Under the pieces are notes generated by a model. It was not told where the DNA came from and made no database searches. It saw only the letters and a program-made list of their open reading frames with translations. Shown here in pieces: positions 9,051 through 10,205 of a DNA stretch of 35,192 nucleotides; the first letter of the stretch is position 1; every line of letters starts with the position of its first letter. Source of the DNA: a virus; IMG/VR virus record IMGVR_UViG_3300034198_016345, positions 1-35,192 of that record. One strand, 5' to 3'. The position numbers and the translations under genes were made by a program.

Positions 9051-9608
9051 ATGAATGCAGTAGCAACTAAGTTTGAACAGTTTGAATGGTTGACTCATGG
9101 CTTAACAGCGAGTTCGCCAAGTTTGGAACCATGTGTTCGCGGCACAGGAGAGAAACCATTGGATTATCAAGATCGCTTGGGTGCTATTGCTTCAATGGAT
9201 ACTCAATTAGCAAAATCAGTAACAGCTTTAATTGTGTTTGATGGCAAGGCTCAGAGTGATTATGAGTATGTTCGTCAACACTTGGCAAATATCTTAATTA
9301 AGAATGCGGTAAATGATAAGAAGCGAGAGCCTGAGGGCATTGCAATGTATCATCTTGGTTGGTTGGTAGCGAAAATGGTTTTGGATTTCGCTTTGGATCC
9401 TGATTTAGAGGATAACTACACCGCTAAAGGGCGTTTGGCTTATGCGGGAATGAAGACGCATCAAATGTCGGTTAGCTCTTATCGCCAAACTTGGAAGACA
9501 TACGAAAACCTCATGACAATGGCAATAGAGTCAGCAATTGATGAAGCTGCCAAAGCTATTGAAAAGTATAAGAAAGAAACTTACAAAGTAGCTAAAAATA
9601 ATTGTTAG
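9051..9608 (+). CDS. Last early gene; candidate late-gene antiterminator (Q position)
   Basis: A 185-residue protein preceded by a GGTGA site. Mostly helical, with SSYRQTWKTYENLMTMAIE and a basic tail (KAIEKYKKETYKVAKNNC). I do not recognise a Q family signature. Two contextual facts suggest a Q-like role: it is the last gene of the early-right operon, and just after it come a candidate promoter and an intrinsic terminator, the layout of lambda Q, PR' and tR'. At least nine terminators also interrupt the downstream late region, so some antiterminator is needed. It could equally be an unrelated protein; the functional label is an inference. Confidence 0.45.
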   Translation: MNAVATKFEQFEWLTHGLTASSPSLEPCVRGTGEKPLDYQDRLGAIASMDTQLAKSVTALIVFDGKAQSDYEYVRQHLANILIKNAVNDKKREPEGIAMYHLGWLVAKMVLDFALDPDLEDNYTAKGRLAYAGMKTHQMSVSSYRQTWKTYENLMTMAIESAIDEAAKAIEKYKKETYKVAKNNC

Positions 9609-9634
9609 CATTTTTCTGATAACTAGAGTATAGT
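9605..9634 (+). promoter_or_regulatory. Candidate late (PR'-like) promoter
   Basis: TTAGCA (9605-9610), 18 bp, then TATAGT (9629-9634). A second -10-like TATACT lies at 9640-9645, and the two form an inverted repeat (AGTATAG, five Ts, CTATACT). A terminator follows within 50 bp, as at lambda PR'. Confidence 0.4.
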
Positions 9635-9679
9635 TTTTCTATACTGGTCGTATTACGGTTATCCGAGACCAAAGTCATT

Positions 9680-9706
9680 AAAGCTCATCGAAAGGTGGGC
9701 TTTTTT
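9680..9706 (+). terminator. Promoter-proximal terminator (tR'-like)
   Basis: A 10-bp stem (9680-9689 with 9694-9703) is capped by a C(GAAA)G tetraloop and followed by a T run. Before it, GGTC...CGG ttat CCG...GACC (9646-9670) forms another helix. A transcript ending here would be about 60 nt. Confidence 0.8.
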
Positions 9707-9707
9707 G

Positions 9708-9947
9708 TTGTCTGTAAAAAGACAATCTATCCTACTGGAGTGCCGACCAGTGGAACATGCCTTCGAGTAAAACTGCTTTATGCAGCCTAAACTAGGGAGT
9801 GGCGTCCCGACCTAAAGAGGATTGAAAGCAAGTAAAGCAGACCGTGCATGTTAGGTATGTGTGATTGTGAGTAGCGGTAGATCAGTTGCCGAGCTGATCA
9901 ATATCGTAATCTAAGGCAAGGGTGTGGCAGTTTGCCATGCCCTTTTT
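9708..9947 (+). ncRNA. Candidate structured RNA with terminal hairpin, about 240 nt
   Basis: No ORF fits here, but complementary segments are dense. They are TTGTCT/AGACAA (9708-9713, 9720-9725); CTACTGG/CCAGTGG (9732-9738, 9747-9753); a long-range pair AACATGC/GCATGTT (9754-9760, 9846-9852) enclosing an exact 8-bp pair CTGCTTTA/TAAAGCAG (9773-9780, 9833-9840); GGGA/TCCC (9795-9798, 9805-9808); and GATCAG/CTGATC (9880-9885, 9894-9899). CTGC/GCAG (9773-9776, 9782-9785) would compete with the 8-bp pair, so two folds are possible. The RNA ends in an 11-bp terminator. I recognise no known riboswitch or ribozyme signature. A weak promoter match (TTGTTG, 17 bp, TATCCT at 9705-9733) might give it its own start. 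Confidence 0.55.
9918..9947 (+). terminator. Strong terminator ending the structured region
   Basis: An 11-bp stem (9919-9929 with 9933-9943, two G-U pairs) with a GTT loop and a following T run. It lies 135 bases before the next gene, so it must be read through or marks the end of a separate RNA. Confidence 0.85.
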
Positions 9948-9955
9948 AATTTAGA

Positions 9956-10052
9956 GAAGTGAATGTGTTTTAGATATCACATCAGGATTAACCAGACCGA
10001 GAAAGCTCCAAGCGAGTGTATATAAACTGGAGTCTTAAGTTTCGTTCACTTC
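9956..10052 (+). promoter_or_regulatory. Three-way-junction-like leader before small genes
   Basis: GAAGTGAA (9956-9963) is exactly complementary to TTCACTTC (10045-10052). Inside are TGTG/CACA (9964-9967, 9978-9981) and CTCCA/TGGAG (10006-10010, 10028-10032). Together they could fold as a three-way junction just upstream of the 40-aa gene. No known riboswitch consensus is recognised. Confidence 0.4.
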
Positions 10053-10082
10053 ATCTAAGTTAATAACAATAAAGGTTCAGCC

Positions 10083-10205
10083 ATGGACGAAGAAGAACTC
10101 AAAGAAATTGAAGAAGATTGTCAGCAGTTTAAGAACGTAATCAAAACAGTGTTTTATTTGGCTGTGATGTTATTTGCAGCTTATTTGGTTTGGTGTAATT
10201 GGTGA
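10083..10205 (+). CDS. Small membrane protein, 40 aa
   Basis: ATG at 10083 with AAAGG seven bases upstream. The acidic N-terminus (MDEEELKEIEEDCQQF) is followed by one membrane span (VFYLAVMLFAAYLVW). It ends five bases before the next gene. As the first gene after the structured non-coding region it may be controlled by that leader. Function unknown. Confidence 0.6.
   Translation: MDEEELKEIEEDCQQFKNVIKTVFYLAVMLFAAYLVWCNW

Follow-up and report, generated by a model that had tools for sequence, protein, structure and literature searches.

The window analysed here is the whole 35,192-nucleotide stretch of the IMG/VR virus record IMGVR_UViG_3300034198_016345. The roughly 470 nt that separate the open reading frame at 9051-9608 from the next one, at 10083, hold no convincing gene. 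The initial annotation had pointed to some 450 nt of gene-free, structure-dense sequence at this place, and comparison with shuffled sequences confirms it: none of 200 shuffles folded as well as positions 9706-9947 (z = -4.39), and one of 200 folded as well as positions 9948-10062 (z = -3.42). A scan of 2.2 kb turned up six terminator-like sites where 0.9 would be expected, and strong terminators stand at 9680-9703 and 9918-9944. ARAGORN detected no tRNA or tmRNA in the window. The features of the locus are collected in Table 1.

Table 1. Features of the locus, with positions in the window
Feature	Positions	Strand	Remarks
Candidate late antiterminator (Q-like) gene	9051..9608	+	phrog_5656; fold match of model
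pR'-like late promoter	9605..9645	+	Promoter-like sites; putative role
Initially transcribed region and tR'-like terminator	9645..9706	+	Putative role
Whole candidate RNA unit	9706..9947	+	Conservation limits; fold z = -4.39
5' hairpin TTGTC/GACAA	9708..9725	+	
RF03046 core	9731..9899	+	131 bits, model 1-164
P1 hairpin CTACTGG/CCAGTGG	9732..9753	+	Other pairing sequences substituted in relatives
Pseudoknot 1, 5' strand, AACATGC	9754..9760	+	Pairs with 9846-9852
Optional local hairpin CTGC/GCAG (supposed switch segment)	9773..9785	+	Changed or missing in relatives
P2 hairpin GGGA/TCCC	9795..9808	+	Rfam model alignment
P3, long imperfect helix, internal loop GAAAGC/GAGTAGC	9821..9877	+	Apical loop carries pseudoknot partner
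Pseudoknot 1, 3' strand, GCATGTT, in P3 loop	9846..9852	+	Covariation
3' H-type pseudoknot (putative)	9875..9899	+	Both stems kept in relatives; by-eye reading
Intrinsic terminator at the 3' end of the unit: stem-loop 9918-9944 with T-run	9918..9949	+	
Stem element ATTTAGA.GAAGTGAA / TTCACTTC-A-TCTAAGT	9949..10060	+	15-bp stem, hypervariable interior

No known riboswitch, ribozyme or tRNA signature had been recognised in the initial annotation, which proposed a covariance-model search against Rfam. That search overturned the earlier view: positions 9731-9899 (+) match family RF03046 (Pseudomonadales-1) over the full, untruncated length of the model (positions 1-164), with 131 bits (E=5.9e-31), about twice the gathering score of 68 bits. 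The consensus helices P1, P2, P3 and P4 all form; non-standard pairs are few and confined to P2 and P3. RF03046 is the sole Rfam match within the window, and no other family reached E<=1 in 9600-10100. The gene-free stretch is a real, conserved structured RNA and a member of an already catalogued family. A decayed coding region, one of the outcomes that the initial annotation had named as counting against its reading, is ruled out, since 19 distinct helices show compensating changes. We found no known function for RF03046, whose Rfam type is 'Gene; sRNA'; the Rfam 15 update names it as one of the families that each gained one covarying pair in their structure. A literature search for Acinetobacter late promoters and sRNAs came back empty, and one for A. 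baumannii sRNAs brought up nothing relevant.

What does the gene upstream of the RNA encode? The product of 9051-9608 belongs to phrog_5656 (E=5e-73), annotated 'unknown function'. It has no Pfam match above the cut-off, and the Pfam Q families (Phage_antitermQ etc.) gave no match even at E<=1. When an AlphaFold2 model of phrog_5656, built from 19 relatives (pLDDT 78), was searched with Foldseek, the first-ranked structure was lambda Q in its loading complex (7ubn_Q; prob 0.94, with a weak E of 0.44), and the rows after it had prob 0.14 or less. VIA-align matched the model to lambda Q with Z 10.6 (7ubn, 161 residues), 9.8 (7ubm) and 7.5 (4mo1) and to AlpA with Z 8.7 (7xya) and 8.1 (7xyb), values to be read with the caution that a Z near 10 can arise by chance among helical proteins. 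The first five rows were all lambda Q or AlpA, and the next unrelated row had Z 5.7. In relatives, the commonest gene directly upstream of RF03046 belongs to phrog_79, 'anti-termination protein Q-like' (52 proteins; representative E = 9e-33), and the window's own family accounts for 27 upstream proteins. Because the model matches the Q/AlpA fold and a Q-like protein stands at the same place in relatives, we read phrog_5656 as a diverged Q and probably a new Q family.

Downstream of this gene the initial annotation had placed a candidate late promoter and a terminator, and both are supported. The promoter-like sites comprise a -10 candidate, TATAGT (9629-9634), and a second -10-like hexamer, TATACT (9640-9645). 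Overlapping them is an inverted repeat, GTATAG (9628-9633) with CTATAC (9639-9644), a possible Q-binding element. Lambda pR' carries a sigma-dependent pause element, and by analogy the second hexamer may be one as well. The initially transcribed region contains a hairpin, TGGTC (9645-9649) with GACCA (9667-9671), and a tR'-like intrinsic terminator with a T-run follows at 9680-9703, 40 nt past the promoter. The locus thereby has the closely spaced promoter and intrinsic terminator by which Q-type late control is recognised. In a lysogen, or without Q, the unit at 9645-9706 would yield a short transcript of some 60 nt whose position resembles that of StxS. The promoter-terminator unit is nearly identical in the Acinetobacter phages TRS1, qsb1, R3177 and Aclw_8, and it is also conserved in RNA-less Acinetobacter plasmids. 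In the regions fetched from those four phages we found no RF03046-family RNA; other cassettes (tRNA or small ORFs) replace it behind the unit. In the window, RF03046 lies directly behind the pR'-tR'-like unit, in agreement with the earlier suggestion of a small RNA at the early/late junction.

The initial annotation had also raised an RNA-based antitermination element of the HK022 put kind, in which the nascent RNA would bind polymerase in cis and make it resistant to later terminators. The place at the head of a long late operon, the compact fold, the lack of a protein partner and the several terminators downstream would all suit such an element. However, the RNA lies downstream of tR' (9680-9703) and so cannot serve it, though it is upstream of the terminator at 9918-9944. 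A Q-fold protein, as modelled, is already encoded upstream and would be the simpler antitermination agent. About half of the phages with the same Q family are without the RNA, which is in turn retained downstream of differing Q families. It is also far larger than put, with no sequence link shown between the two. The proposal found no support, and we consider it the least probable of the readings weighed here.

Across the 10 nearest relatives, conservation runs from the end of tR' to the downstream terminator at 9918-9944. A long-range 7-bp pair had been proposed within this unit, together with covariation analysis as the way to check it. The pair, AACATGC (9754-9760) with GCATGTT (9846-9852), is exact and passes that check. 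We counted covariation on pieces aligned by rule in Python, MAFFT alignments having misplaced the type C pseudoknot strands. Over 41 distinct pieces, representing 19 distinct helices, 97% of cells are paired. There are 98 doubly changed cells compared with a shuffle mean of 33, and none of 2000 shuffles, which ignore relatedness, reaches that number. The percentage paired is likewise reached by none of 2000 shuffles, and slid registers are 24-41% paired; the number of pair types alone shows no excess (791 of 2000 shuffles reach it). The variants include AGTTAGC/GCTAACT, AATGAGC/GCTCATT, AGTGGGC/GCCCATT, TACATGC/GCATGTA, GGATAGG/CCTATCC, GGATGGG/CCCATCC, AATGCAC/GTGCATT and GAATTGG/CCAATTC. Since the 3' strand sits in the P3 loop, this comparison of sequences supports reading the pair as a pseudoknot that is missing from the nested Rfam model. 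The apical stem of P3 itself varies, with pairing kept, in type-C members.

Positions 9875-9899 are best read as a second pseudoknot, of the H type. Its putative stems are CGG (9875-9877) with CCG (9889-9891) and GATCAG (9880-9885) with CTGATC (9894-9899), for which relatives substitute CTATG/CATAG, CCATG/CATGG or CAGTA/TACTG together with ACCACAG/CTGTGGT or GCCACAG/CTGTGGC. The pairing proposed as a switch fared differently. The 8-bp pair CTGCTTTA (9773-9780) with TAAAGCAG (9833-9840) exists exactly in the window, but it is not conserved: of 63 distinct type-A relatives only 5 could form it in full, and we rejected the switch at 9773 on this count. In 45 of the 63 the segment instead retains a small local hairpin, whose sequence changes; otherwise it is missing.

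Terminators normally flank the RNA in this family. Under a strict terminator definition, a strong intrinsic terminator lies no more than 220 nt upstream at 107 of 120 distinct loci (1-5 in shuffles), and one lies within -30..+60 of the RNA 3' end at 87 of 124 (1-2 in shuffles). Normally bounded by terminators on both sides, the RNA is therefore a unit that needs either read-through or its own promoter, and its place between the two fits transcription by antiterminated polymerase. In types B and C the upstream terminator is mostly 80-200 nt away, and these types could have their own promoter.

In our large genome searches, run under stricter filters, RF03046 was found in 50 of 176 Acinetobacter species; 47 of these score above the cut-off, and some of the 50 carry two to four copies. 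Three other Moraxellaceae genomes gave weaker matches (46-62 bits), and among about 390 genomes drawn from part of the order the query was the only match. The GTDB contigs recovered by motif scan were all from Acinetobacter (18 of 18). To judge from these genomes, the family is nearly confined to Acinetobacter. Within phages its presence varies: 13 of 25 records with a phrog_5656 gene carry the RNA, some of the RNA-less records being fragments. We regard the RNA as accessory because about half of these records are without it.

Three types can be distinguished among the relatives, that of the window being type A. The 5' domain measures about 150 nt in the long form of type B and about 110 nt in type C, and both domains open with a Shine-Dalgarno sequence and a mini-ORF of 2-17 codons showing synonymous third-base differences. 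The predicted peptides include MPAYA, MPVYA, MPVYV, MPAFA, MPIFA, MPTF, MPIYESFLIS, MHKPSY, MK and MKDR, among others. The mini-ORFs (loci L158-L223, types B and C) lie about 40-116 nt upstream of the core and often read M-P-x-[YF]-A or M-K. In a crude scan reaching 200 nt upstream, a Shine-Dalgarno sequence with a mini-ORF turned up at 23 of 30 loci of type B, at 18 of 20 of type C and, as background, at 16 of 65 of type A; the window has none. A speculative reading, which we hold to be rather improbable, would make RF03046 the shared core of a family of Q-dependent late phage RNAs built from modules. The forms with a mini-ORF ahead of the double-pseudoknot RNA would capture or re-programme terminating ribosomes during lysis, phage tRNAs would belong to the same takeover of translation, and type A would be the form without a mini-ORF.

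What lies downstream of the RNA differs from locus to locus. A tRNA gene is found within 300 nt at 45 of 123 distinct loci, mostly tRNA-Arg(TCT) (35 genes), and typically sits directly behind the T-run of the RNA terminator. At L010, L039, L101, L108, L134 and others, tRNA-Arg(TCT), Trp(CCA), Met(CAT) or Ile(TAT) lies 80-90 nt past the start of the TGAGTAGC motif. The further gene order (small ORFs, an HNH/DUF968 protein, NinB, the terminase small subunit) is usual with or without the RNA. We rejected the HNH/DUF968 protein as a partner of the RNA, as it is found in a phage without the RNA too, and saw no dedicated phage protein partner among the neighbours of the RNA loci. With neighbours as varied as these (tRNA-Arg at 35 loci, elsewhere small ORFs or HNH), no single target in cis emerges, and on these variable neighbours we base the inference that the RNA acts in trans.

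Could the RNA instead be a leader that acts in cis? As an attenuator it would set read-through at 9918-9944 into the tRNA slot and the late genes, sensing a ligand, a ribosome or a protein. A conserved structured RNA followed by a terminator has the anatomy of a leader, conservation is unusually high in the linker AATATCGTAATCTAAGGC and in the terminator sequence, and the mini-ORFs at the start of types B and C recall those of attenuator leaders. Yet the one proposed switch pair is not kept, an unsystematic look for other conserved, mutually exclusive pairings found none, and the genes that would be regulated differ between loci. Moreover, the arriving polymerase would probably be terminator-resistant already through Q, and in several members of type C the RNA is not directly followed by a terminator. 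We therefore think a cis attenuator unlikely.

Two further readings also deserve consideration. The first is a particle like those of GOLLD and ROOL, homo-oligomeric or engaging ribosomes at lysis, in which the 7-bp pair would form between molecules. The RNA is phage-borne and structured, it joins a conserved core to changing 5' modules, and a tRNA gene is often near, features also described for GOLLD and ROOL (PMC12286853); covariation would look the same for an intermolecular as for an intramolecular pair. On the other hand, at about 240 nt the RNA is much smaller, the window has no Rfam match to GOLLD or ROOL, and the oligomer is put forward by analogy with those RNAs. We judge this quite improbable. 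The second is a base-pairing sRNA of the StxS kind that would regulate host or phage mRNAs. Late promoter leaders do yield phage sRNAs: StxS, a product of the PR'-tR' region, represses stx1B (PMC7873438). A short RNA would be expected in the lysogen from the pR'-tR' unit of the window as well. StxS, however, lies before tR' and RF03046 after it, and the RF03046 core is highly structured, with single-stranded segments that are mostly conserved, more like a structural RNA than an sRNA with a seed region. This reading appears very unlikely to us.

The structured DNA behind the RNA terminator is a separate element from the RF03046 unit. The initial annotation had seen there a three-way-junction-like element closed by an exact 8-bp stem. 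The 8-bp pair, GAAGTGAA (9956-9963) with TTCACTTC (10045-10052), is exact, but a 15-bp stem with a single bulged A (9949-9963 with 10045-10060) describes the structure better than a junction does. We found seven distinct versions of 65-115 nt, in which the ends are constant and the interiors mostly unrelated. The constant 15-bp ends (AATTTAGAGAAG...CTTCATCTAAGTTA) occur in the window and at L014, L092, L094, L150, L152 and L182. The element follows the tRNA slot in relatives; in the window it stands where relatives have their tRNA-Arg, and is itself not detected as a tRNA by ARAGORN; in phage qsb1 it comes directly after the tRNAs, and TRS1 has a divergent version at the same place. It may be a processing site or an exchangeable cassette. 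Other conserved late-leader segments (CAGCGCAAATGA..., GCCGCCACCCAGAT...), each ended by a terminator, were seen at L063, L076, L096, L165 and L173. The late leaders thus resemble arrays in which one RNA cassette can be exchanged for another.

We propose that RF03046 is an accessory, Q-dependent late RNA of lytic growth, made at the start of the late operon and acting in trans. We give this reading roughly even chances, and rank the cis attenuator, the GOLLD/ROOL-like particle, the seed-type sRNA and the put-like element all below it. The Q/AlpA-fold protein encoded at 9051-9608 would load on polymerase at the pR'-like promoter, and the modified polymerase would read through tR'. Only this polymerase would then transcribe RF03046 (core 9731-9899, unit about 9706-9947), and the transcript would end at its own terminator and be released as a discrete RNA. 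Folded into four helices and two pseudoknots, the RNA would act without a dedicated phage protein partner, probably on a host target. An orphan Rfam family thus gains a setting: the start of the late operon, behind a putatively Q-controlled terminator, in Acinetobacter prophages. Our work adds to this a better structural model with two pseudoknots, modular relatives with mini-ORFs, and the Q assignment, and the new setting and structure make the function of RF03046 testable in lysogens. The assignment of phrog_5656 to the Q/AlpA antiterminators, probable as it is, would in itself be useful for the annotation of Acinetobacter phages.

How does the locus compare with known systems? AlpA is reported to recognise a promoter element and to let polymerase bypass a terminator downstream of the promoter (PMC9371919). 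The lambda Q and P. aeruginosa AlpA systems and the window have in common a Q-fold protein (in the window, by its model) and a promoter with a nearby -10-like repeat. As in the lambdoid pR'-tR'-Q arrangement, an intrinsic terminator lies about 40 nt downstream of the promoter and late genes lie beyond; phrog_5656, though, has no detectable sequence similarity to the Pfam Q families. The window RNA has the same four-helix architecture as the RF03046 model, whereas the Rfam model we used is without the pseudoknot, the 5' modules and the terminator. The distribution seen here, almost Acinetobacter only plus three other Moraxellaceae, contrasts with a spread across Pseudomonadales. HK022 put acts on early transcripts ahead of terminators and without a protein; put and RF03046 are both structured RNAs in a phage leader near terminators, but RF03046 follows tR' and has a Q-like protein at hand. 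StxS and RF03046 both derive from late leaders in lambdoid prophages. StxS is made in the lysogen, between PR' and tR', whereas RF03046, behind tR', should be lytic. GOLLD and ROOL are phage RNAs near tRNA genes, of unknown function, that form RNA cages (PMC12286853). They share with RF03046 that they are phage-borne, pseudoknotted, near tRNA genes and without a protein partner, but they are several times larger, unrelated by Rfam model, and known to form nanocages.
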